Virus record (IMG/VR): IMGVR_UViG_3300009285_000507
Coordinates: 1-32,748 of that record
DNA: 32,748 nt
Origin: a virus
Direction: 5' to 3' (one strand)
The notes below the pieces were generated by a model that saw only the letters and a list, made by a program, of their open reading frames with translations, was not told the origin of the DNA and searched no databases. The position numbers and the translations under genes are program-made. How positions within the stretch are numbered: the first letter of the stretch is position 1; every line of letters starts with the position of its first letter. Positions 2,527 through 24,385 of the stretch are shown piece after piece.

Positions 2527-4080
2527 CTAGATTGCGCTGAACACTGCATGCAGGGACTGGTTGGCTGTGACATTGTTGAAGGTGTAGTTGTACGAAGTCT
2601 GCATATTAACTGATACCCCATTAACTGAAACGTTCAGAAGTGTATCCGAATCATTGGGGAAGAAGTTAAATGTGTATCCTGCACCTGGGCTCAGCTTAGC
2701 ATACTCTGGTACGATTGAACCATTACCATCAAAGCTGGTTGAGATAAGGTACTTATTAACTGTGAGTGCTGAGTTTGTTGATAGCACATTGGTGCTGATG
2801 TTGATCATTGTGTTACCAGTCTCAACTGCAACCACTGTTGCCTGTGACTTACCATTTGCAGCTGTTACCACTGGAGTCAGATTAACCGATGCAACAGCGT
2901 AATCATTTGAGCTGAAGTACACTGAAACTCCAGACATAACGTTACTGAACTGGTCATATGCAACAACCTCGTAGACCTTGCTCTCAGCTACGTTTGCTGA
3001 GTATGTGGATGGGGAGATTGTGATTGAGGTAAGAACCTGAGTTACTGGAGCAGGTGTGCCGCCGCCACCAGCTGCAGAAATACCAGCAAAGATGATGTAA
3101 TTCATTGCTGCATATGGCTGCATGTTATTGTGTGGCATATCATTACCAACACCATTTAGACTGATGTTCTCTGGTGCATAGCTGAATGGGTTGGCTGTCT
3201 GTGTTTCCCTGTATAGTGAGCCGGTAATAAAAGCTCCTACATGGGTGTGATTAGCCATCTCATCCTGTGTAATCTGGTGCATGTACTCACCGTTATATGA
3301 CTCACGTGAAGAGATGCCAGGAGTGTCAGTCTCACCAAGTGTGAATGTCCTTGAGATGAACCGGCTATCCATATGAGTTCCTGAGCCTACAATAACACGA
3401 CCACGTAGATCTGGAACAGCAAAGTTGGTTGCATTGGTTGATCCCCATGTGTTGCCAATTGAAGCGTACAGCTCTGGGTAGTCATTGATACTGTAGAGAT
3501 CACCGTCGCACACTAGGTAATAAGTGGGGCAGGTAACGCCTCCGTATGGCTCAATTCTACCAGCTGGCATAATGGTGCGTAGCTTGTCTTCGAGGTATCC
3601 TGAAGTTAGATCCTGATTGTTTACACGGATATGCTTACCAGTGCCGGTGCGCTCTGAGTAATCAAACTCCATTGTTGGGCCATTATAGCTCACACGACCA
3701 AAGCAGATCTCACTGGTATCCGCACTGTTATATGATGTCTCAACACCAATGGCTGCGTACCAACCCTCAATGTCCTGATACTTATAACGAGCTATAACGT
3801 AGTCACCATCGACCACTGCTACAGTGGTGCTTGAGTTTGCACTGCAGCGTATGTACTGTGTGGTTCCAGGGTGAGCTACATCGTCAGCCCAGAACACAAA
3901 CATACCAGGCTGAACAACTGCGTTGGTTCCGTTGGCTGACAGAGTACAACCACCATAGATACCCATAGGAGTAGTGCCAGAATGAGGAACGTTCCAAGTC
4001 TCAGGAGCTACAGCTGCCCTGAAGTGAACCCCAACATTCTGGTTACCTTGATTTACGCTTGTCCCATAGCTTACTGTCAT
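2527..4080 (-). CDS. Tail collar-domain fibre/adhesin with Ig-like and InlB-repeat modules
   Basis: 517 aa, ATG at 4080 with AGGAGA 7 nt upstream. Residues 1-170 are a beta-rich N-terminal part that probably docks to the baseplate. Residues ~172-333 match the phage tail collar (MdpB-like) domain: MPAGRIEPYG, a YLVCDG turn, a PDLRGRVIVG box and a late DEMANHTH. A Gly/Pro linker (338-346) leads to a Big/Ig-like domain (~348-440, LTSITISPST, then VAYDQFSN). The last ~74 residues (444-517) resemble a divergent InlB B-repeat: FDGNGSI, then YTFNNVTANQ and a terminal AVF. This is the last gene of the tail operon, the position of P2 gpH and other receptor-binding proteins, so host recognition is likely. 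No separate fibre chaperone is seen downstream. Confidence 0.82.
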   Translation of the reverse strand: MTVSYGTSVNQGNQNVGVHFRAAVAPETWNVPHSGTTPMGIYGGCTLSANGTNAVVQPGMFVFWADDVAHPGTTQYIRCSANSSTTVAVVDGDYVIARYKYQDIEGWYAAIGVETSYNSADTSEICFGRVSYNGPTMEFDYSERTGTGKHIRVNNQDLTSGYLEDKLRTIMPAGRIEPYGGVTCPTYYLVCDGDLYSINDYPELYASIGNTWGSTNATNFAVPDLRGRVIVGSGTHMDSRFISRTFTLGETDTPGISSRESYNGEYMHQITQDEMANHTHVGAFITGSLYRETQTANPFSYAPENISLNGVGNDMPHNNMQPYAAMNYIIFAGISAAGGGGTPAPVTQVLTSITISPSTYSANVAESKVYEVVAYDQFSNVMSGVSVYFSSNDYAVASVNLTPVVTAANGKSQATVVAVETGNTMINISTNVLSTNSALTVNKYLISTSFDGNGSIVPEYAKLSPGAGYTFNFFPNDSDTLLNVSVNGVSVNMQTSYNYTFNNVTANQSLHAVFSAI

Positions 4081-4091
4081 TTATCATTCTC

Positions 4092-7000
4092 CTAAAGGCT
4101 GATTGTGCAGCCTAAATATTTACCGTAATTTGACTTACGACATTTGTCTGTCATGCTAAAACGAGTGATACAGAGCAATGTATTTGCTGAGAAGTAACCC
4201 ACCTCGTTAACCAAGTTACCACTAATAGATGGTATAAATAAGTCTGACTGTATAGCCAGTGTATTGGCAGTTGGATTGTAAACAACTGACAGATTAACTG
4301 GGTCAGAGCTGTACCTGCTATCAAAGAATGGGTTGTTAACATCAGTCATATTGGTATTAATTGCAACACCATCAGTTTCGTAGCCAAGTTTGTAGTATGT
4401 GATACCATGGGTATTTGGATCAACAATACCACCATTGCACACACAAGCTGCTGTTCCAAGAGTTCTGATCTTAGCCACAGTCTTGGCATTAATGTACTTA
4501 ACATCACCAGCATTATTGCAAGATCCGATCTCATCCTTAAGTGCGCTGGCGAACATTGCCATATGATCTGACATTGCCATCATGTTAACGTCACCACTAA
4601 CCTGAACCTTACCCTCAAACTGTGAGGTGTAGAACAGGTCATCATCTTCAGTGAAGTACCCGATGGTATTGAAGTACTCACCATTATGATCATTGGTGGT
4701 TGGAGTGAAATCAATCTTGTTGTCGATGATTGACTGGGCCTGATGATACCTACCATAGTTTAGTGCATTGCGGTTGTACAGTGGCTTATCAAGATTACCC
4801 TTGGTGTACACTATTGTCCCAGGAATATCTGTCCATGATGCTCTGCGGATATTGGATGGAACAGTTAGGTCAAGCATTGCAGCCTTCATATACACTGGCT
4901 GGTTCATGTCATTAACTGAGTATGCACATGGTGGGCAGGTGTAGGCTGAGTCATCAATGACCTGTTGGTTGATAAAGCGGAGCTCATCAATGCCCTGACC
5001 AATGGCATTCTGTGGGATGTCTAGATAGAACTCATTGTAGCTGCCAAGTGCATTGAAAGTAATTGTCTGCCATGATGTGGTATTGCACGTACCAGCATAG
5101 AGAGTTTCCATGGCTGAGTTTGAGCTACCAATGATTGTGTAAGGGCCAAATGCTTCATGAGCCTTAAACTCAACTGCATTGACGTACTGAACATCATTAG
5201 CTGAGATACCAATAGTTGAGTTGATTGAGTTTGTACCTTCCCACCAAGTGCTATCATTGTTATCAAATGCATATGATGCTGGGTGACCAATAACTGCACT
5301 TGATGCTTTAGGTGTTCCAGAAATCAGTAGATCATTGTACTGATAAAATTCTATCTCAGCTATGTTAGCACTCATGATAGGAGACAGAGCTATTGAGTTA
5401 ATGTTATATGTGTACGAAGGGATATCTATGTCATACCATACCCCAGCTGAATTAACAGTTCCAGAAGCAACAACGTTTGTGGTTAAGCCAGTATTGTCCA
5501 CTACTTCGTACCCACCAAATGCTGTTGTTGGGTAGAGGCGTATTCTTGAAACCTTAGGTAGTACTGAGTTACTAGAGATACCAAGGAAATCTCTGTAATA
5601 GTTAGCACCAACCCAGGATGTGCTAGTGTTCCCATCATACGCTAGGCTATTAACTGATGGATAAACCTGTGTGCTGACATAGGACTTAACTGGATTAGCG
5701 GATGGTGTTGGGGTAACAAAGTCTGTATTCTCAGCTATCTGTGTTAGTGTTCCTGGAGTTGACTGCTTGCCCATACCAACCAAACAAGATAGACTGTCTG
5801 TTAACGTATCCGCGTACCACATACATTCAGTACCAGCTATTCTTCCAGTAGCTGGGCTTACACAGATATACCCAACAAGAAGATACTTGGATGCCATAGT
5901 TCCTGTAGTTATATACTTAATGTCACTAAGTAATAACCATAGGCCACCACCTGGATCATTCGGGATGGAGTGGTACGTAGCCCATTCATCATCTGACCAC
6001 AGAATACACCTGGTTGGGTTAATGAATGCACCACCGGAACTTCCTACAGCAACAACCCACCTACCATTTAGGTACCCTCGCACATGTGTGTAATTCAGTG
6101 GTACACCTACAACTGAGCTCCATGAAGCTCCATTGTCATCAGAGTAACCCATTGCAAAACCTTCTCTGTTACCGTGCAACCAACGACCTAACCCAACTCC
6201 TGATGTAGGACTGAAACCAATTGATTCATTCTGTGCATATGCAGTTGTCTTAACATTTGTCCAGTTTATACCATCAGGAGACCATGATATTTTTCCTGGG
6301 CTTGCAATCATCCACCCACTTGTTCCACCGTAAGCTACTTGAGTAGCCTCCAAATAGAGTGTTGCTGTATTTATACCAGTCCAGTTAATACCATCATTAG
6401 AGTATGCAACATTATTTGTTCCAGTACCAGCTGCTACCCACATACCACCGCCGTACTTAACAAAATTACAGTGTGCAGTGAATATAGTGCTTCCAAGACC
6501 AGTCCAGTTAATACCATCATAGGAGTACGCTAGTGTGTTAGATGGACTCTCCATACCAGCTACCCACATACCGTTTCCATACTCCACGCAACGAACATTC
6601 TTAAATCCAGTTGGGGTTACAATAGTGGACACCATTGTTTCATCATGTGCTACAAAGTCTGGTCCTGCTGCAGTACTGTTAGAAACTACATATAATGCTT
6701 CAGTTATTGTTGATGTACTAACAGATAACTTGGAGAAAGCTCCACCATTAAATTTAAGTTCAGACAAAGACTGAAGAGCTACATTGCCACTAATTTCCAT
6801 GTAGTACTTGTTATACCAGTTAGTATCATTTACTATGACTGTCACTGGAGTGTTAATTACAGAGTTAACACCTGAGTACAAAACAACTGGGCTTGATCCG
6901 GTTGCTTCCCCATACATGTTAAAGCTTGTCCATGGGTGCTTTGCAGTGTACACAAAACTCTTAAGTGGTGGTTGTGCTGTGTTATTGGATATACCAATGG

Positions 7001-8381
7001 TTGCATTGGTAGTGTACGTAAGAGATGCTTGCCAGTAGGTTAGCTGGTCTCCATCAAATGCGGCTGACACTGGGTGATCAGCAACTTCAGATGACGCTTC
7101 TCCATTACCTGTGATAATAGTATTGGCTGTCTGAAACACACCATAGTTACCAGCAACAAGAGTTCTGTCTGCCCTGTAGAAATCAACATGATCTGATACA
7201 CGAGAGAATGGATCAATGCTATCATCTGGATCAATTGAATCAGGATAGATACCGAACTCACGATCAGCAACAATGTTAACAGGGATGATACTGTCAACTG
7301 ACTTTGCTGCATTCTGCAATAGCTGCTCAGTTGTCACTCCACCCTTATGAGCAAACTCAAGGATGACATGTGGGGTGTTATATGAAGGATGGTTAATGTG
7401 TGTCTTGTCGAGATCCTCATATGGAACAAGGTCATCAACAGTATAAGTGCTTGTCCAAAGGGGAATGATTTCCTTAAGCAAGCCAACGGTAGCCATGTAT
7501 GTGTCTAGTGATAGCTCTGTGCCCTTAATCTTGTACCACTCAGTAGCATACGCAATCTGCTGCCGAACTGAGCCCTGTGTCATCTGTGCTAGGTCATTAA
7601 TGTTAAGCCCAATATAATTAGCAAAGTCAGAAGCGTACTGGATAGGAAAATTATCTGGGTCTTTAGCCAGGATAACTCCCTCAGATTTCTGTTTGATCTC
7701 AAAGTAGATACGCTCCATGATCCTAATGAAATCCTGAACCTCAGGAAGGATGCGGAACTTCTCTGGGAACAAGAGACTCAGGTTGACAGCTGACAATGAG
7801 GAGATGCGCTGTACACCCAGTGAATTCATGGTGTACGTGTTAACTGTTCTGTCAATAGTATTAACGGTTGGGGTGGTGTAAATCTCCGCTGTCTCATCAA
7901 GGTTAACAGTTAGTGACTGGATAGTTCCTGTTGGCTCAAATGAACGAACCTTAAGGGTGTACACATTCTCAGCAGTTCTGTCAGCGAAGGTGATCTCATA
8001 GCGGCTATCCTCGTCACGTAGGTAGTCATCAACGTCAAGGAGAGTTGTGACAATATCTCCTGCGCTGGTTACCAGATTGACACTGAGAACATTTGTTGAG
8101 GTATTTGCAGAGAATGTGATGTACTCTTCTGTGAAGTTCTGCTCTGTAACCGCTGGATCCTTGAGGAACATCACTGCTGTGTTTGAAGTAGTTACAGTGT
8201 AGTTAACAGTCTCATAGGAAGTGTTGGTGCGCTTCTCCTCGTACTCACGGAGGAAGTTCTCGACCTTGTCAGTAATCCACACAATAGACTTACTACTTGT
8301 GGAAGCAAGGTCATCAATTGAATAAGTGTTGTATGTAATAGGTGTGGTTATGTGGTTAAAGGTAAGATCCTGTTCTGACAT
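4092..8381 (-). CDS. Giant baseplate protein: P2 gpI/gp7-like N-terminus fused to Asp-box propeller and discoidin-like domains
   Basis: 1429 aa, ATG at 8379-8381 with a GGGGAG-type SD overlapping the end of the previous gene. Residues ~190-390 look like the P2 tail protein I family: a LLFPEKFRILPEVQDFI helix, then ASDFANYIGLN and WYKIKGTELSLDTYM. Gene order (gp25, J, this gene, fibre) supports that role. Beyond ~420 the protein is unusual. There are three ~120-residue beta-sandwich units that resemble F5/8 type C (discoidin) domains (~420-545, ~897-1013, ~1014-1137), each with an S-HP-AFD/AYDG start and a W in the first loop. Between the first two (~590-880) are Asp-box motifs (SYDGINW, SNDGINW, SPDGINW, SDDNGASW) spaced ~40 residues apart, typical of sialidase/BNR beta-propellers. 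The C-terminal ~290 residues are unassigned. Glycan binding is inferred. Confidence 0.75.
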   Translation of the reverse strand: MSEQDLTFNHITTPITYNTYSIDDLASTSSKSIVWITDKVENFLREYEEKRTNTSYETVNYTVTTSNTAVMFLKDPAVTEQNFTEEYITFSANTSTNVLSVNLVTSAGDIVTTLLDVDDYLRDEDSRYEITFADRTAENVYTLKVRSFEPTGTIQSLTVNLDETAEIYTTPTVNTIDRTVNTYTMNSLGVQRISSLSAVNLSLLFPEKFRILPEVQDFIRIMERIYFEIKQKSEGVILAKDPDNFPIQYASDFANYIGLNINDLAQMTQGSVRQQIAYATEWYKIKGTELSLDTYMATVGLLKEIIPLWTSTYTVDDLVPYEDLDKTHINHPSYNTPHVILEFAHKGGVTTEQLLQNAAKSVDSIIPVNIVADREFGIYPDSIDPDDSIDPFSRVSDHVDFYRADRTLVAGNYGVFQTANTIITGNGEASSEVADHPVSAAFDGDQLTYWQASLTYTTNATIGISNNTAQPPLKSFVYTAKHPWTSFNMYGEATGSSPVVLYSGVNSVINTPVTVIVNDTNWYNKYYMEISGNVALQSLSELKFNGGAFSKLSVSTSTITEALYVVSNSTAAGPDFVAHDETMVSTIVTPTGFKNVRCVEYGNGMWVAGMESPSNTLAYSYDGINWTGLGSTIFTAHCNFVKYGGGMWVAAGTGTNNVAYSNDGINWTGINTATLYLEATQVAYGGTSGWMIASPGKISWSPDGINWTNVKTTAYAQNESIGFSPTSGVGLGRWLHGNREGFAMGYSDDNGASWSSVVGVPLNYTHVRGYLNGRWVVAVGSSGGAFINPTRCILWSDDEWATYHSIPNDPGGGLWLLLSDIKYITTGTMASKYLLVGYICVSPATGRIAGTECMWYADTLTDSLSCLVGMGKQSTPGTLTQIAENTDFVTPTPSANPVKSYVSTQVYPSVNSLAYDGNTSTSWVGANYYRDFLGISSNSVLPKVSRIRLYPTTAFGGYEVVDNTGLTTNVVASGTVNSAGVWYDIDIPSYTYNINSIALSPIMSANIAEIEFYQYNDLLISGTPKASSAVIGHPASYAFDNNDSTWWEGTNSINSTIGISANDVQYVNAVEFKAHEAFGPYTIIGSSNSAMETLYAGTCNTTSWQTITFNALGSYNEFYLDIPQNAIGQGIDELRFINQQVIDDSAYTCPPCAYSVNDMNQPVYMKAAMLDLTVPSNIRRASWTDIPGTIVYTKGNLDKPLYNRNALNYGRYHQAQSIIDNKIDFTPTTNDHNGEYFNTIGYFTEDDDLFYTSQFEGKVQVSGDVNMMAMSDHMAMFASALKDEIGSCNNAGDVKYINAKTVAKIRTLGTAACVCNGGIVDPNTHGITYYKLGYETDGVAINTNMTDVNNPFFDSRYSSDPVNLSVVYNPTANTLAIQSDLFIPSISGNLVNEVGYFSANTLLCITRFSMTDKCRKSNYGKYLGCTISL

Positions 8382-8386
8382 TTCCC

Positions 8387-10498
8387 CTACTCCCCAATGT
8401 ACTTCATAGTGGTATAAATATTATTGAGAACAGCACACTGAGTAGGACCAACCGTAATGTCATCACTTGGAATACTCTGAGCGTACTCAATAGTGAACAC
8501 TGCACGGGTTGGGATATCATCAGTTGGGGTGCTACCATTGTAGTTAACATAAGCCTGAATAGTGCCTGTGGTGTAGTTGATATCATTATCGCCAGTGCCT
8601 GTGTCAACTGAATAGCGGGATGAAAGTGAACCATTATAGGTGATAACATTACCTGAGTAGTCATCCTGTGCAATAGGAGTACCATCTGCGCTAATCACCA
8701 ATGACCCTGGGACAATGGGGACATAGGTGTTGTAGTCAACGATCTGGTGGGTGTATGGAACACTCAACAGTGAGTTCTTAATGGTCTTTACTTGCTCACG
8801 ACTCTGCTTGTACTTTGCTGAGACAGTGTTACCACTTGGGATTGGTGTTGCAAACATTGCATTGATAACACCTGTGACATAATCAATGTTGCCAGAATTA
8901 ACTGTGTAAGGATGAGGAGTAACTGACAGGTACTCACCAGCTGTAACAATGCTACCAGCCCCATCATCCTTACCAACCATAACCCCATTTACGTACAGGT
9001 AGAAATTGCTCTTTGCTACTGGGAGTAGTGGCAGGGTGAACGAAGATACATTGCCTGAAGTTACAGTTACAGGCGAGTACACCTTCATGTCAACTTCAGT
9101 GTAGGTAATGCCAGAAGCTAGATTAGCCTGGCTGGTAACAACTGAGCGAATGATATCCTGGTTAAGTTCAGCTGCATCGTATGACAATGCATCACGCAAG
9201 GCAGTCTCAACATTAGTACGTGCAATGGTTAGATCCTGACCATAGCGCACATATGCATTCATGTCAACGTCAAACTTAATAATCGTTCCCTCATATGCTT
9301 CATAGCGGATTGAGATCATACCCTTGTCATAAAGGTTACCCAGAAGAGTTCCCTTGTCTGGCTTAGTCATACTGGCATCAGTTGACGAACCAAACAACCA
9401 CTCATCTGTAACAGCCTGTGGAACTCCCGTGTTGTCAAGCTTGCGGAGCAGATAGATATTTACACGATTGAACATGTCATAGTTAGGTGGGAACAGGTCA
9501 CGCTCTGCCTCAATATAAACCTTGTCCACACTGGTATCAAGCTTCAACAGTGCCTCATGGTCAAGCTTGGTAACTGCACGGTCACCAGTCTGGAACACAA
9601 GTGGAGCCAGTGACTTAATATCAGCTGCTGTTTCACGCTCAATACCACCTGTTGCAGGAGTAACATTGGAGCAGGTTAGCTGTGCATAGATTGCTCCAGT
9701 GCTGTCATAGATGGCATTGACAATACGTGTCAGGACACCAGTTGATGCAATGTTGCCCTCAAGACCCTTGGACACTAGGTACTCAATAGTGATGGTATCA
9801 CCCTGCTCTGGAATCTGGCCGAAGTCTCCGTCACCAAGCTTGACTAGGAGATACTTATTGGGGAGCTCATTTACCTCAAACGCCTGGAACTGAATCCCTT
9901 CCTTTGTTGCAGTGGGTAGTAGAGCATCAACCAGTTCCCATGCTGTGTCTGCACTGCCATGTGTTACGTACAGGCGAACACCAGTGTTCTCAATTACTGT
10001 GCTCTCAAGAACATAGGACTGACTAGCCTGACCTGAACTTGTGATCTGAACTTCATACAGGCTACCCTCAACGCAATTGATGTCTTTAAATGTCTCACCT
10101 GCATTGATTGAGGTGTCTTCATTGACAATAAACTTTAGGCTATTCTCGTCATCAGTTACAACTGTTCCACGTGGGATAATAATGTTATACCCATGTGCAG
10201 CTGGCAGAGTAAAACGAACTGTGCAGCTTGCTGATACACGCCGCTGTGGCTGGTAGTTCAGAAGCTTTGCTGCACGAACAATGGATGACTCAAGGCGAGC
10301 TGTGTCTAAGTAGCTCTCCTCAATTGCACGTTCAAGAGAGTAATGCATGACATCGCCAACATAGGCAAACAGTTCAATGAGTGTCTGACCAGTGCTACTG
10401 CGATAAGCATCAGTCCATGTGGGCTCTTTAGCCAACTGGTTAGATAGGTTCTTTACTAGATTATCAAAGCTGAATTCACTATATGGGATGTTAGGCAT
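8387..10498 (-). CDS. Baseplate J / T4 gp6-like wedge protein
   Basis: 703 aa, ATG at 10496-10498 with AGGAGA upstream that overlaps the stop codon of the gp25-like gene. The N-terminal ~110 residues carry the baseplate J signature: TLIELFAYVGDVMHYSLERA, then ESSIVRAAKLLNYQPQRR. This is followed by a beta-rich part and a DRAVTKLDHEALL segment seen in gp47/J proteins. The C-terminal ~250 residues are repetitive beta-strand sequence beyond the P2 J core. The protein should form the wedge ring around the hub. It sits exactly between the gp25-like and gpI-like genes, as in P2 (W-J-I) and T4-like phages. J-family identity is confident; the C-terminal extension is not assigned. Confidence 0.9.
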   Translation of the reverse strand: MPNIPYSEFSFDNLVKNLSNQLAKEPTWTDAYRSSTGQTLIELFAYVGDVMHYSLERAIEESYLDTARLESSIVRAAKLLNYQPQRRVSASCTVRFTLPAAHGYNIIIPRGTVVTDDENSLKFIVNEDTSINAGETFKDINCVEGSLYEVQITSSGQASQSYVLESTVIENTGVRLYVTHGSADTAWELVDALLPTATKEGIQFQAFEVNELPNKYLLVKLGDGDFGQIPEQGDTITIEYLVSKGLEGNIASTGVLTRIVNAIYDSTGAIYAQLTCSNVTPATGGIERETAADIKSLAPLVFQTGDRAVTKLDHEALLKLDTSVDKVYIEAERDLFPPNYDMFNRVNIYLLRKLDNTGVPQAVTDEWLFGSSTDASMTKPDKGTLLGNLYDKGMISIRYEAYEGTIIKFDVDMNAYVRYGQDLTIARTNVETALRDALSYDAAELNQDIIRSVVTSQANLASGITYTEVDMKVYSPVTVTSGNVSSFTLPLLPVAKSNFYLYVNGVMVGKDDGAGSIVTAGEYLSVTPHPYTVNSGNIDYVTGVINAMFATPIPSGNTVSAKYKQSREQVKTIKNSLLSVPYTHQIVDYNTYVPIVPGSLVISADGTPIAQDDYSGNVITYNGSLSSRYSVDTGTGDNDINYTTGTIQAYVNYNGSTPTDDIPTRAVFTIEYAQSIPSDDITVGPTQCAVLNNIYTTMKYIGE

Positions 10499-10508
10499 TA
10501 TCTATCTC

Positions 10509-10901
10509 CTAGAGAGAAACTTCTGCTACAAATTGTGCGCCGGTCATAATAACAGTGCAGGCAATCTTCATGTTCATTGAGTGTCCATCTGGATCAATGT
10601 CAACTACAATGTCATCAATGCGTGGGCGAGGATCCCACTTAGCTATCTCTTTCTGAATCATAGAGATAACAACAGTCTTCAGTTTTTCATCAGCTGCTTC
10701 AAATAGAAGTGAGCGAAGTGACGCACCAAAGTCACGGAGCATAGGGCGTTCACCACGCATAGTGGACAGAATATTTACAACGCTACCCTTGACAGCATCA
10801 ACTCCATAGGCGATAGTAATATTACCATCAATACCCGTGGAGAGAGTGTTGTTGACATCGGAGTACTGCATTAATCCTTTTACTTCATCTACTGTTGCCA
10901 T
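10509..10901 (-). CDS. gp25/P2 gpW-like baseplate wedge protein
   Basis: 130 aa, ATG at 10899-10901 with GAGG 6 nt upstream. It shows the compact GPW/gp25 fold signature: VKGSVVNILSTMRGERPML then RDFGASLRSLLFE, followed by a helix and an IDDIVVDIDPD strand. The usual length for the family is 110-140 aa. gp25 binds the sheath-initiator side of the baseplate wedge with gp6 and gp53 and starts sheath assembly. The neighbouring J/gp6-like gene begins within 11 nt of its stop, so the two are probably translated together. Confidence 0.93.
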   Translation of the reverse strand: MATVDEVKGLMQYSDVNNTLSTGIDGNITIAYGVDAVKGSVVNILSTMRGERPMLRDFGASLRSLLFEAADEKLKTVVISMIQKEIAKWDPRPRIDDIVVDIDPDGHSMNMKIACTVIMTGAQFVAEVSL

Positions 10902-14791: not shown

Positions 14792-16369
14792 TCAGTTAAC
14801 AAAGACTATTGTGCTATCATCATAGTCTATAAAAATATCAGAATTATTAACTACTTCTGTGTTATTCTTTATGGTTAAAGAACTTGAGCTCTGCGGCATA
14901 TCTGGCTGCAGCAATGGCATACCGGGGTACTCTGAGAATGTTGGACTTAGAGATGACATTGAATCCCCAGACTGGCTAGAGTACCTGGATCTAACTTGAT
15001 CAACATACTGAACTATAGAGGGTTCATTGCCATTTCCCTGGTTCCTGGTAAATCTTCTCTCTGACCTCCATCCAGTATGTACTGCTGCGTAGTCAGCTGC
15101 TGCACTGCCAGCATACCAAGCTATAGACACCATATCCCAATCATGGTATCTATTAAAGTACTGACCCATTTTAAATCTAGCAACCCTATTTTGATTAGCT
15201 GGAGTTCTAGGGGAGTTCGCTGGTAAACCAGCTTCCCTCGACCACTCAGGCCAATTAGCAGGCATTATTTGAAATAAACCATGCGCCCCAGTTCTTGTGT
15301 TTATTGCAGAGGAGTTACCACCACTCTCCTGCCCAGATATAGACGACATATACTGTTGCAGTGTAACATTTCTAGATCTAAGATAAGGATTATTCTGTAG
15401 AATATCCCTTGTGACATCCTCCTCATTACTTGTGGTGGCCAATGATTCAGCATTGAGTAATACATCCACAATTACAGCAACTGGCCAAGACAGTATAAAT
15501 CTTGCAACCTTTAGTGCTGCTCCAGATGAACCTGCAATAGCTGACCCAATACCAGGTATAACTATATTAAACTTCTTAGTTGCATATCTTGCTATAGCAC
15601 TAAAGTTAATGGCTCTTGAGTTCACAAGAACTTTCTCAAGGAATTCAATAAGTTTAAGCCCGGCATTTCTCCCAAAGTTTCTTGTCAAAACATACACAAC
15701 TCTAAGTGCTCTATACCCAAAAGCCTGAACTACCTTAAAGATTCTCCTGATTATTTCCCACTCAAATATCTCTTTAATATAGTCCCACATAGAACTATTG
15801 GTGTCATTAGAATCTTGTGTGTCTATTTCTTCCTGCTCTTCTCTGTCTCTTTTACTTGATTTTACATCATCAGTGCTACACACCTCAAGTAGCTGGTCAA
15901 GTAAACCTGGGATAGTATCAACAGTTGCTTCCTCAATTGAGTCCTCGCGCAGCTCTTCATCAAGCATGAGCTTCTCACTATACGGAGTGGTGTCACTTAG
16001 CATACCCCTGGAACCACGTCTGCCTGAGTTTATTGAGCTTAAAACGGAGTGTATCTTAAGGAGTGATCTCTCTGGAGTACCCTCAATAAGAGCCCCTGTA
16101 TACGAGCTCCTAGCCATGTAGAATGGGCTACTGAGCAGGGAGAAGCTCTTATCAAGGATATTGAATAGATCCTTGGATTTCTCAGGGATGTACACTGGAT
16201 CAACAGAGGAGTCCTCTTGTTGAGGTGAGTTTGCTACGCTATTATTTAGTTCTACCCTGTTCTCTAGTTGCTTCCTGAGATTGGTATATAGTATATCAAC
16301 ACGGTAGGAAAACTCCATGTTCCCTGCTACAAGGTCTTTAAATGCCTTGACAACATCGGTGTTAGCCAT
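14792..16369 (-). CDS. Tail-associated lytic transglycosylase (SLT domain) with hydrophobic segment
   Basis: 525 aa, ATG at 16367-16369, immediately after the stop of the previous gene. Residues 1-200 are charged and helical. Residues ~265-302 form a long hydrophobic Gly/Ala stretch, a possible membrane-inserting helix. From ~335 there is a Slt-type lysozyme fold: SGQESGGNSSA with predicted catalytic Glu348, then GAHGLFQIMP and SIAWYAGSAA, then YVDQVRSRY. The C-terminal 60 residues are Ser-rich. This is a virion enzyme for local peptidoglycan cleavage during injection, comparable to lysin domains on tape-measure or pilot proteins. It follows the M15-peptidase protein, giving the tail glycosidic and peptide-cleaving activities side by side. 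Whether it is a second tape-measure subunit or a separate tail lysin cannot be told from sequence. Confidence 0.8.
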   Translation of the reverse strand: MANTDVVKAFKDLVAGNMEFSYRVDILYTNLRKQLENRVELNNSVANSPQQEDSSVDPVYIPEKSKDLFNILDKSFSLLSSPFYMARSSYTGALIEGTPERSLLKIHSVLSSINSGRRGSRGMLSDTTPYSEKLMLDEELREDSIEEATVDTIPGLLDQLLEVCSTDDVKSSKRDREEQEEIDTQDSNDTNSSMWDYIKEIFEWEIIRRIFKVVQAFGYRALRVVYVLTRNFGRNAGLKLIEFLEKVLVNSRAINFSAIARYATKKFNIVIPGIGSAIAGSSGAALKVARFILSWPVAVIVDVLLNAESLATTSNEEDVTRDILQNNPYLRSRNVTLQQYMSSISGQESGGNSSAINTRTGAHGLFQIMPANWPEWSREAGLPANSPRTPANQNRVARFKMGQYFNRYHDWDMVSIAWYAGSAAADYAAVHTGWRSERRFTRNQGNGNEPSIVQYVDQVRSRYSSQSGDSMSSLSPTFSEYPGMPLLQPDMPQSSSSLTIKNNTEVVNNSDIFIDYDDSTIVFVN

Positions 16370-18346
16370 TTATCGTACTCTATTGAGCATTATTATGCTT
16401 GGGTTATTTATGTCCTCTGGAAACAAGTTCTTCTCTATTCTACGACTGGAGTTTGACTCAGACGCAGTATTTGTCTCAATGGATTGTGATGAACCTCCAC
16501 CAGCTAGTGCCCCAATGCTGCCACCACCAGCTAGTCCTGAACCACCACCCCCACGGATCTGAGTGTGGGTTACAGAGCCAGCCTGCATACTTGAAGGTCT
16601 TGCGCCTCTTCGAACACCAATGTGAATGTGATTCCAGTGCCCTGAGATATGACCAATACGAGCACCGTTATCCCAGTTGGTAGGCATATGATTATACATG
16701 AGCTCATCTATTTGTCTGTTAGGACCTATTGCAAAAGGCTCAAGCTCACGGAAGATTCTCCCCAGTATTGGGCTGTACTTGTCTCCATAGCTACCACTAC
16801 CAATGTCAAGACCATGGCCGCTATAGTGGTATGACCCAGCTGTGTGCTCTCCACCAGTGGTTGATGTAATATTGGGGTTAAATCCTCTGGAGTTCAGGAA
16901 GCTCTTAACATCCTGCCAAGTGCTCATCTCTGTGTTTGGCTCACCCCCACCACCTGAGGTAACAACACGTGACTCAGAAGCATCTGGCTGTGTTGGTGCA
17001 TTTGAAGTAGCATTTGATGACGGGGTTATGCGGGACTCAACCTTGCTCCAGTCATTGGTTACAAAGTCACCATAGATATATCCTCTTTGACCTGACTCAG
17101 CTATTACATGCGCCCAACCATTAACCATCTTAACAAGGTTGATCTTATCCCCATTGTTAAGGGTATCCAAGATAGCAGCACTGGTGTTTGGCATAGCTCT
17201 TAGGTTTACATTGAAACCAGTTACATACCACTGCCCAGGGTACACACTTGGAGTAGGTGTTACCCTACCCTCTGAGGATGTTGAAGACGCGGGCACCTCT
17301 TCAGCAATAGGTACTGTTGAGCTACCTCTTACAGGCATAGCATCTGAAGCTGTGCTACTTCCAGCCATTACAGGGTGGAAGGTGGGTACCATTGGGATTG
17401 GTTCTAATGGATCACTTGAACCAGATGGTGGGGGTACAGGGGCCTGCCTATCACCTGCGTCAAACTCTCCTGCTCCCTGTGTACCACCAGTCACTGTGCC
17501 AGCTGGTATGCCCTCAGTAAAAAAGTCATAAGCTGATGAAGCAATGGCAGCTCCTGCTCCAACGGCAGCAATGCCAGCACCTGCAATCAATCCTAGTGCA
17601 AGTGTGCTAAGGCTAGCCTTTGACGCAGCTTCGTCCTTTTCTTTCTTACCTTTGTGGCAATCAATAAGTGCTTGTAGTTTCTCAGGGATGGTTACAACAA
17701 CAGAGCGAGTTACTGAACTCTTCTGTTTCTCATCCTCAGCATCATGACGCTCACTTTGTGGAGTTACATCACTAAGAAAGCTGTTGCTCTCAACAGATGA
17801 GGTATCTGTGTTCGATGGATCAACCTGGGTCATTCCATCCTTAAGCTTAACTACCTCCGTGTATATGAGTTGTAGTGAGTGCTCTTGAGTTCCAGCAATA
17901 GACAAAGCAGTGCGAGTCTTAGCTGATACAAAGGTTGGATTGTCCATCCTTGCATAGTTAAGAGCTGTCTCTAGCCGTGTGACATCTTCCTTGGCTAGAC
18001 CATAGTCAGTTGTTACTCGTGCGCTTGACTGAGGATTCTGTGCTGCTGGTGCTAGCTGGTCATCTTTTGAGAAGGCCTTCTTGATCAACTTGCCAGCTAA
18101 GTATGCTGTGCCAAACAATGGGTCAGCCAGAGATAGACCAGCTGCAACTCCCATTGTAGCTAGGTTTGACTTGCGTTCTGCTTCTGCTTTGGTTTTCTCT
18201 TCTTCCTCTTTGATCTTCTTCTGAACACCAAGTATATCATCAAACTTCTTTACAAGCTCTGAGTACTGTACACCAAGCTCGACAATGTTGCGTCTGGTTT
18301 CCTCATCTAATACTGAAGCTGACCTCTTATCACTGGAGTCCACCAT
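16370..18346 (-). CDS. Tape-measure candidate with SH3 and M15-type peptidase domains
   Basis: 658 aa. The reading frame can start at a TTG (18364), but ATG at 18344-18346 is chosen because GGAG lies 7 nt upstream. Residues 10-60 form a charged coiled coil (VQKKIKEEEEKTKAEAERKS). There are hydrophobic segments near 62-92 and a glycine-zipper stretch at ~245-276 (ALGLIAGAGIAAVGAGAAIA). A bacterial SH3 domain covers ~372-427 (FNVNLRAMPN, then GWAHV and GYIYGDFV). From ~474 there is an M15-like metallopeptidase: SYHYSGHGLDIG (fits SxHxxGxxxD; ~505-516) and HWNHIHIG (HxH; ~569-576) supply zinc ligands. Position after the chaperone-like gene is the usual tape-measure place. The enzyme would cleave peptide stems during DNA entry. 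The tape-measure role is inference; the peptidase motifs are directly visible. Confidence 0.75.
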   Translation of the reverse strand: MVDSSDKRSASVLDEETRRNIVELGVQYSELVKKFDDILGVQKKIKEEEEKTKAEAERKSNLATMGVAAGLSLADPLFGTAYLAGKLIKKAFSKDDQLAPAAQNPQSSARVTTDYGLAKEDVTRLETALNYARMDNPTFVSAKTRTALSIAGTQEHSLQLIYTEVVKLKDGMTQVDPSNTDTSSVESNSFLSDVTPQSERHDAEDEKQKSSVTRSVVVTIPEKLQALIDCHKGKKEKDEAASKASLSTLALGLIAGAGIAAVGAGAAIASSAYDFFTEGIPAGTVTGGTQGAGEFDAGDRQAPVPPPSGSSDPLEPIPMVPTFHPVMAGSSTASDAMPVRGSSTVPIAEEVPASSTSSEGRVTPTPSVYPGQWYVTGFNVNLRAMPNTSAAILDTLNNGDKINLVKMVNGWAHVIAESGQRGYIYGDFVTNDWSKVESRITPSSNATSNAPTQPDASESRVVTSGGGGEPNTEMSTWQDVKSFLNSRGFNPNITSTTGGEHTAGSYHYSGHGLDIGSGSYGDKYSPILGRIFRELEPFAIGPNRQIDELMYNHMPTNWDNGARIGHISGHWNHIHIGVRRGARPSSMQAGSVTHTQIRGGGGSGLAGGGSIGALAGGGSSQSIETNTASESNSSRRIEKNLFPEDINNPSIIMLNRVR

Positions 18347-18404
18347 CTTCTTGCTTCTCCGCAATCATGTCGATAACCCTAAGAAACTCAAACATATCCA
18401 TCAT
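18330..18404 (-). CDS. Possible 24-aa ORF or frameshift extension of the gp26-like gene
   Basis: After the TAG of the gp26-like gene there is a 24-codon frame starting ATGATGGATATG at 18404 and ending TGA at 18330, overlapping the next gene's start by 17 nt. It has no good Shine-Dalgarno. The same frame is open leftwards from 18590, so it could instead be the C-terminal tail of a +1 (or -2) frameshift product. A phage tail chaperone with such an extension is common in this genomic slot. Expression is unproven. Confidence 0.3.
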   Translation of the reverse strand: MMDMFEFLRVIDMIAEKQEDGGLQ

Positions 18405-22827: not shown

Positions 22828-23450
22828 TATGCTAGACCCTCATTATAGATACGTGCCTTGACATAGAAGATGGTTGCATAGTCAGGATCAGTTACACGTG
22901 CAAGTGCACCATTTACAATGAACTTAAATGTAGTCCTGTAAACCTTACCCTTGGTGTACTTGCTCTCAATGTCACTGGCATCCTGGGGATCACTGAAGGT
23001 AATGTTGAATCCAAAGTTCTGCTCAATTACATTATGCTCAGTGAACTCAACAATGGGTTCGTACTTCCACCACCACATATAGTTTGAGATCACTGTATTC
23101 TGGGTACGACGATCAGTTGACCAGAAATCCAGTGTGTAAGGAATCATTACTGGGATCAACTTAAGCTTGGCTATTCTTTCTTTGACAGCTCCAGTGGCCT
23201 CATCAAATTCTCCATAGGGGAAACCTTCGATTGCTGTGAAGTGCGAGTACCTCATTTCATTTTGCAGCTGAGGAGCTTCACGCCAGAGATTAGCAAAGGG
23301 CATTGATACCCTTGACTTATCTTCTGTTCGTGTGAAGTACGCCACGCCCTTTGGTTGAAAAAAAGCATCGCTCTGGTTTATCCCAAGTCTATCACAGACA
23401 CGGAGATATACCTCCCTATCCGTCTTCTCTATAAGCTCGACCTCGGCCAT
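22827..23450 (-). CDS. Probable tail terminator/neck protein
   Basis: 207 aa, ATG at 23448-23450 with GGAGATAAATA upstream. It is beta-rich with IPYTLDFWSTDRRTQNTVISNYMWWWKYEPIVEF in the centre and YRTTFKFIVNGALARV near the end. No enzymatic motifs. A protein of this size immediately before the sheath is often a tail terminator (T4 gp3/gp15 or P2-like equivalents) because the WWW-containing helix followed by a paired sheet suits ring formation. I recognise no exact family; the call is by layout. Confidence 0.45.
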   Translation of the reverse strand: MAEVELIEKTDREVYLRVCDRLGINQSDAFFQPKGVAYFTRTEDKSRVSMPFANLWREAPQLQNEMRYSHFTAIEGFPYGEFDEATGAVKERIAKLKLIPVMIPYTLDFWSTDRRTQNTVISNYMWWWKYEPIVEFTEHNVIEQNFGFNITFSDPQDASDIESKYTKGKVYRTTFKFIVNGALARVTDPDYATIFYVKARIYNEGLA

Positions 23451-24271
23451 TATTTATCTCCACTAGTGCTGATATTTTCTGATTGAACCCATCTTACATA
23501 GTCTGCCTCTATAAAACCACGATCTAGTTCTCTATGATGATTAGGACAAAGATATATTAAATTACTGGAGGAGTTAACCTCACTTATAAAAGAGTTATCA
23601 GAAAAGGACTCAACTGCTTTTATATGACATACATCAACTGATTTTGTGTACCCACACAACAAGCACCTCTTCTCTTTGTACGTCTTAACTATCTCTTTCC
23701 TAGCATAGTTATCAATCATAGCTCTCGCACTTCCTCTAGTTGAGTATAGTAAAAAAACATCATGAATAGTTAAGTCAACAAAAGATGTTCTCTTTTCTAC
23801 CCTAATCTTGTACCTCTCTTTTTTTACCTCTTCACTACACTCTTTGCAGTACTTTTCTTTTTTACCAGAATACATGTATGTTATGTCAGCTTCACATCTA
23901 CAACACTTTTTTCTTTTAATCTCCTTGAACTTCATCTTAATGTTATTGGCATTATATAGACCAAAACATGTGCTGTTACAAAATTTCTTAATCTTTGTAG
24001 CACTTACACTATCACCAATTATATCTATTGGTTTAGAACAGTACATACAGTGTTTAGGATTCTTTAGGTACTCATCAACTAGAAGTTTTTTTTCTTTAGC
24101 CTTAGAACATCCTATAGAGCAGAACTTTCTTGCTCTTATATGCGATATTTTGTCAGTAGGTTTCATAGGTATAGCCCTACCGCAGAACTCACATAACTTT
24201 GGATTCTTGTTGTACTCTTGTAGTGTATAGTCGCTAGCTCTGTACGGATCTTTCCAATTCGTGTTATACAT
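23450..24271 (-). CDS. Free-standing HNH endonuclease with three zinc-finger modules
   Basis: 273 aa from ATG at 24269-24271; a GTG at 24280 is an alternative. Three N-terminal Cys4-type modules are visible: C27xxC30/C51xxxC55, C75xxC78/C98xxxC102 and C123xxC126/C142xxC145. The first two follow a repeat EYxKNPKxCxxC. The C-terminal ~75 residues form the nuclease: CLLCGY (C203, C206), VCHIKAVESF (H216) and NLIYLCPNHHRELDRG with H245-H246, matching HNH family signatures. The gene is strongly AT-rich compared with the flanking tail genes and sits next to a tRNA, typical of a mobile homing endonuclease. It overlaps the next gene by TAATG, so it is now integrated into the operon. Confidence 0.88.
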   Translation of the reverse strand: MYNTNWKDPYRASDYTLQEYNKNPKLCEFCGRAIPMKPTDKISHIRARKFCSIGCSKAKEKKLLVDEYLKNPKHCMYCSKPIDIIGDSVSATKIKKFCNSTCFGLYNANNIKMKFKEIKRKKCCRCEADITYMYSGKKEKYCKECSEEVKKERYKIRVEKRTSFVDLTIHDVFLLYSTRGSARAMIDNYARKEIVKTYKEKRCLLCGYTKSVDVCHIKAVESFSDNSFISEVNSSSNLIYLCPNHHRELDRGFIEADYVRWVQSENISTSGDK

Positions 24272-24307
24272 TTTGTTCACGCTCTTTATCTTAACTCGTT
24301 GTTGTGT

Positions 24308-24385
24308 ATGGTAACGGGACTGGAAATCGAATCCAGAGTCTTCGGCGTATGAGACCGACGTTTTACCAAATTAAACTATCCCGTA
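24308..24385 (-). tRNA. tRNA with CAU anticodon (Met, initiator-like or Ile2)
   Basis: A 78-nt cloverleaf on the minus strand, including an encoded CCA end. Acceptor arm 5' TACGGGA pairs with TCCCGTT except for U1-U72; D stem GTTT/AAAC with GG in the loop; anticodon stem TCGGT/GCCGA around loop CTCATAC (anticodon CAT at 34-36); 5-nt variable loop; T arm CTGGA-TTCGATT-TCCAG. Discriminator A. The identity (Met or lysidine-modified Ile2) cannot be settled from sequence. Confidence 0.92.

Follow-up and report, generated by a model that had tools for sequence, protein, structure and literature searches.

A gpI/gp7-like baseplate wedge protein with a predicted Asp-box propeller and discoidin-like units in a contractile-tailed phage

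Host recognition by contractile-tailed phages is usually attributed to fibres and spikes. Asp-boxes are typical of sialidases, and Ycf48, which carries an Asp-box propeller, is a photosystem II assembly factor. According to the title of Copley et al. 2001 (cited in PMC4802629), Asp-boxes occur in different protein folds. Within the literature searched, which comprised open-licence papers only, there was no description of a propeller in gp7 and a single related experimental case (PMC11406892), which concerns a wedge protein that has CBM folds. This is Gp119, baseplate wedge 3 of the Bacillus cereus Herelleviridae phage Vp4, which combines CBM16 and Xyn10B-type folds and for which binding to Bacillus cereus cells was shown; it resembles the protein described here in being a wedge protein with carbohydrate-binding-type folds, but no propeller was reported (PMC11406892). 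Several oligosaccharide-binding sites within a single tail have been described for RcGTA (PMC7296036).

The locus analysed here lies in a window of 32,748 nucleotides, the whole stretch of DNA examined, which belongs to a virus record of 96,748 bases (IMGVR_UViG_3300009285_000507). An earlier note, made from the sequence alone, had described a protein in the gpI/gp7 position carrying a propeller and F5/8C-like units and distinct from the adjoining collar-domain fibre, a description that holds, and it had placed the region correctly, at residues 420-1140 of the reading frame (nt 4962-7124). The features of the locus, all on the minus strand, are as follows.

2527..4080 (-), gene of a collar-domain tail fibre, next downstream of the wedge-like reading frame (PF07484, E=8.3e-19)
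4092..8381 (-), gpI/gp7-like baseplate wedge protein of 1429 aa, whole reading frame
4095..4955 (-), C-terminal region, aa 1143-1429 (287 aa), no recognisable family
4956..5345 (-), discoidin-like unit 3, aa 1013-1142, repeat of unit 1 and sub-threshold match to PF00754 (E=4.4e-4)
5346..5726 (-), discoidin-like unit 2, aa 886-1012, resembling unit 3 (E=1e-8)
5727..6713 (-), predicted Asp-box beta-propeller, aa 557-885, probably of seven blades (blade HMM, homologue alignment and model)
5973..5996 (-), degenerate Asp-box SDDEWATY, aa 796-803 (sequence, and equivalent blade position in the homologue alignment)
6120..6143 (-), Asp-box SDDNGASW, aa 747-754
6261..6281 (-), Asp-box SPDGINW, aa 701-707
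6381..6401 (-), Asp-box SNDGINW, aa 661-667
6504..6524 (-), Asp-box SYDGINW, aa 620-626
6714..7136 (-), discoidin/CBM32-like unit 1, aa 416-556, repeat of unit 3
7137..8381 (-), N-terminal wedge region, aa 1-415, assigned because the gene follows gp25 and gp6
7449..7739 (-), gpI-like helical segment, about aa 215-311, with the motif WYKIKGTELS (TIGR02242, PF09684)
8387..10498 (-), gp6/J-like baseplate wedge gene, next upstream of the wedge-like reading frame (phrog_219, E=1.3e-58)
10509..10901 (-), gp25/W-like wedge gene (PF04965, E=1.1e-12)

The wedge-like reading frame is probably no assembly error, because an identical protein (100%) recurs in a second IMG/VR record, UViG_3300025010_000002, of 139,571 bases. 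Scans of viral contigs with this protein, gp6 and the sheath produced a near-identical record, a 13.5-kb fragment and one distant relative; a chaperone-like gene matched in a genome-contig scan through a short peptide was unrelated and was discarded. The gp6/J-like gene had tblastn matches in 1145 phage records. The same strand also has, upstream, genes for an OB-domain hub-type protein, the sheath and other tail components. Two big proteins of the tail region (14792-18364, minus strand) carry a transglycosylase SLT domain and a bacterial SH3 domain, and a protein at 23450-24280 (minus strand) has an HNH-endonuclease-like C-terminus, with a tRNA-Met gene just past it at 24309-24385. At its end the downstream collar-domain fibre has a Big_1-like Ig domain, which scored under the cut-off, together with another C-terminal stretch.

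The protein is termed gpI/gp7-like, and is not assigned to a family, because both of its gpI-family scores fall below the curated cut-offs: the TIGR02242 phage tail domain scored 22.3 bits (E=1.1e-4) against a cut-off of 51.85 and PF09684 (Tail_P2_I), in its sole match in the record, 17.7 bits (E=1.7e-4) against 20.6. Both models hit the same residues, about aa 215-311, and the gene comes directly after gp25/W and gp6/J. Gene position and the two sub-threshold matches thus lend moderate support to a baseplate wedge identity, position being the stronger of the arguments. A comparison of the N-terminus with gp7 N-termini by hhalign did not reach significance (P=0.047, at a probability of 1.1%), aa 1-400 found no homologue at E<=1 in the phage database and neither the PDB sequences nor the phage collection yielded a match to the whole 1429-aa protein. 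Apart from a portion of discoidin-like unit 1, aa 1-556 were modelled poorly, at a mean pLDDT of 42.7.

The wedge-like protein contains four canonical Asp-boxes, three of the pattern S-x-D-G-x-x-W (from aa 620, 661 and 701) and one, from aa 747, of the pattern S-x-D-x-G-x-x-W, with spacings of 41, 40 and 46 residues. The earlier note had likewise read repeats about 40 residues apart, with four or five clear boxes; a fifth box-like site, at aa 796, is degenerate. The number of canonical boxes exceeds chance, the expectation being 0.28 and four or more being reached in 7 of 20,000 composition shuffles. A one-blade HMM built solely from blades of other phages scored three blades at 54.1, 42.5 and 21.7 bits, compared with 4.9 for the best of 200 shuffles. 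Structure prediction, which had been suggested as a check, did give a propeller: the AlphaFold2 model of the propeller (pTM 0.68, mean pLDDT 63.8) has pLDDT values of 78-94 over blades 2-4 and below 50 in the last approximately 110 residues. Foldseek returned 618 matches in the PDB at E<=0.001 and the 50 listed were all propeller proteins, of YWTD, kelch and Ycf48 types, with Ycf48 5ojr (TM-scores 0.55/0.61) among the best. Viral structure matches included proteins with BNR repeats and DUF6242, and the sequence profile of the propeller matched the DUF6242 chain 9hjm (E=6e-5). Ycf48-type and DUF6242 propellers have the fold and the Asp-box repeats in common with the present domain and differ in being mostly cellular proteins.

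A short-alignment homology search of viral contigs matched at least 599 stretches, 219 of which were confirmed as relatives, and the best 80, from 79 loci, were kept; phmmer E-values for the homologues went down to 1e-87. An alignment with 14 homologues indicates that aa 557-885 spans all seven blades of free-standing relatives, with blades 1, 6 and 7 kept in position and their boxes degenerate. The domain is therefore probably a full seven-bladed propeller of some 330 residues and of BNR/Ycf48/DUF6242 type, the count of seven having moderate support and resting on the alignment, because of the low pLDDT at the end of the model. The suggestion that the propeller might be short is answered in part by this alignment. 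A generic beta-sandwich array of the tail-fibre kind, which had been named as what the homologues might turn out to be, is ruled out for aa 557-885 by the homologue alignment, the PDB matches and the blade HMM; the homologues are propellers instead.

In unrelated phages such propellers are free-standing or occur in tail-fibre or other tail proteins, and the genes beside them are tail genes of varied kinds. The free-standing and fibre-borne phage propellers of the DGINWT type, for example that of locus L014 with 309 aa, form one family with the present domain (at most 45% identity, over about three blades), but differ in their surroundings: among the 79 viral loci sampled, which were partly truncated and had limited flanks, there was none in which a relative of gp6 or gp25, of the kinds looked for, lay beside the propeller reading frame. 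The L014 propeller (6950-7876, plus strand) is a free-standing gene of the seven-blade type near a sheath gene and is the top-scoring single relative of the propeller in the wedge-like protein. Loci L028, L042, L043, L047 and L054 encode related proteins of about 1060 aa in which the propeller follows an N-terminus of about 250 aa, the one in L042 being truncated where the contig stops; the gene immediately upstream matches tape-measure families in L042 and L047.

The propeller is flanked by discoidin-like units, one N-terminal and two C-terminal of it. The three are related internal repeats, units 1 and 3 sharing 32% identity over 129 aa (E=3e-16) and units 2 and 3 similar at E=1e-8, and the proposal of three such units around the propeller is thereby borne out. 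In sequence pattern and predicted fold they resemble F5/8C discoidin and CBM32 modules, but they are termed discoidin-like only, because PF00754 (F5/8C) matched just once in the whole 96.7-kb record, in unit 3, at 16.8 bits against a curated cut-off of 28.2. The model of unit 1, part of which reached pLDDT 80-89 and most of which was of low confidence, matched CBM32 and the factor VIII C2 domain at E of about 2e-3, and other beta-sandwich domains at slightly better E-values. Its matches to the clostridial enterotoxin C-terminal domain were read as reflecting only a common beta-sandwich fold. Neither Pfam nor PHROG gave a match for aa 1143-1429; this region contains two G-Y-F motifs reminiscent of phage collar-fibre proteins, and a suspected internal repeat in it was not detected.

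The earlier note had regarded Asp-box repeats as unusual in a gp7-type wedge protein, but they are not unique to this one, and a propeller on a wedge is not a new kind of arrangement, since some cyanobacterial phages have it too. The propeller gave weak tblastn matches in cyanophage gp7 genes, and searches with the matched regions together with reading of the genes established related propellers in gp7-position proteins of at least six lineages (S-CAM9, S-8S53/55/56, S-SSM7/S-SSM6a, DSL-LC03, Sf-FS3 and S-SCSM2R). Cyanophage gp7 ('baseplate wedge initiator') is thus alike in bearing a related Asp-box propeller at the gp7 position, and in S-CAM9 and S-8S56 the gene order of gp25, gp6 and propeller-bearing gp7 is that found here; it differs in its size, from about 2,500 to more than 5,000 aa, and in having the propeller near its C-terminus. 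A phmmer comparison of discoidin-like unit 1 and of units 2-3 with the S-CAM9 gp7 gene found nothing. In a tree the six cyanophage propellers included formed one clade (99/97) apart from that of the wedge-like protein, which grouped, on a long branch, with other phages' propellers that are free-standing or part of fibres (95/83). It is therefore likely that the present propeller was captured independently of those in cyanophage gp7, the length of the branch keeping this short of proof.

The Asp-box and internal discoidin repeats, the family to which the propeller belongs and the order of the genes are observed, and the explanation that we favour, with moderate confidence, is that the gene encodes a gpI/gp7-like wedge of a contractile-tailed phage whose head binds glycans multivalently and non-enzymatically. 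Such binding is proposed on the strength of the Vp4 and RcGTA precedents and of the tail genes that neighbour related propellers. An adhesion cassette, consisting of a discoidin-like unit, the putative seven-bladed propeller and two further discoidin-like units, would be inserted between a wedge-forming N-terminus and the C-terminal region, and multiple copies would be present, at least one in each wedge of a six-fold baseplate, if known myophage baseplates are a guide. If exposed on the surface, it would present low-affinity glycan-binding surfaces without enzymatic activity and would keep the baseplate on host surface polysaccharide, complementing the collar-domain fibre, a separate protein. 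Since some Asp-box propellers, such as Ycf48, bind protein, the ligand could be something other than a sugar. This leads to the most substantial of the alternatives, in which propeller and discoidin-like units are structural or assembly parts, a protein-protein scaffold that might, for instance, dock the collar-domain fibre. A close fold match, Ycf48, has a peptide-bound solved structure (5ojr, 'YCF48 bound to D1 peptide'), the next gene downstream encodes the fibre and an insertion domain of the A-1(L) wedge holds the long tail fibre (PMC10966104). However, the occurrence of the propeller as a free-standing protein and in tail-fibre or other tail proteins of unrelated phages is easier to reconcile with a mobile adhesin than with a fixed contact, and the flanking units look like CBM32/F5-8C modules, many of which are sugar binders, so that a scaffold seems rather unlikely.

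That the gene might instead encode a tail fibre or spike sitting in the wedge position is compatible with gpI-family matches that stay under their cut-offs, the non-significant hhalign result and an aa 1-400 region lacking phage homologues, but two gpI-type models fall on the same residues, PF09684 matches nowhere else in the record and the gene comes straight after gp25 and gp6, which makes this distinctly improbable. Least credible is an active sialidase-like glycosidase that trims host surface glycans. The sialidase-like head of the earlier note, taken in an enzymatic sense, has in its favour marginal profile matches to sialidase chains (E 0.06-0.12), but there is no sialidase family among the Pfam matches, the F/Y-R-I-P motif is absent from aa 557-885 and DUF6242 and Ycf48 match better; an active sialidase was rejected on the Pfam results and the profile matches.

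For the wedge carrying a glycan-binding head, a broader suggestion can be put forward tentatively, namely that gp7/gpI wedges have captured propellers independently at least twice, in cyanophages and in this lineage, and serve as a general, exchangeable receptor-binding platform beside the fibres. The propeller/discoidin-like wedge head and its apparently independent parallel in cyanophage gp7 suggest that binding modules are exchanged in the structural core of the baseplate itself. If so, this would be relevant to the prediction of host range, in which wedge genes are seldom considered.
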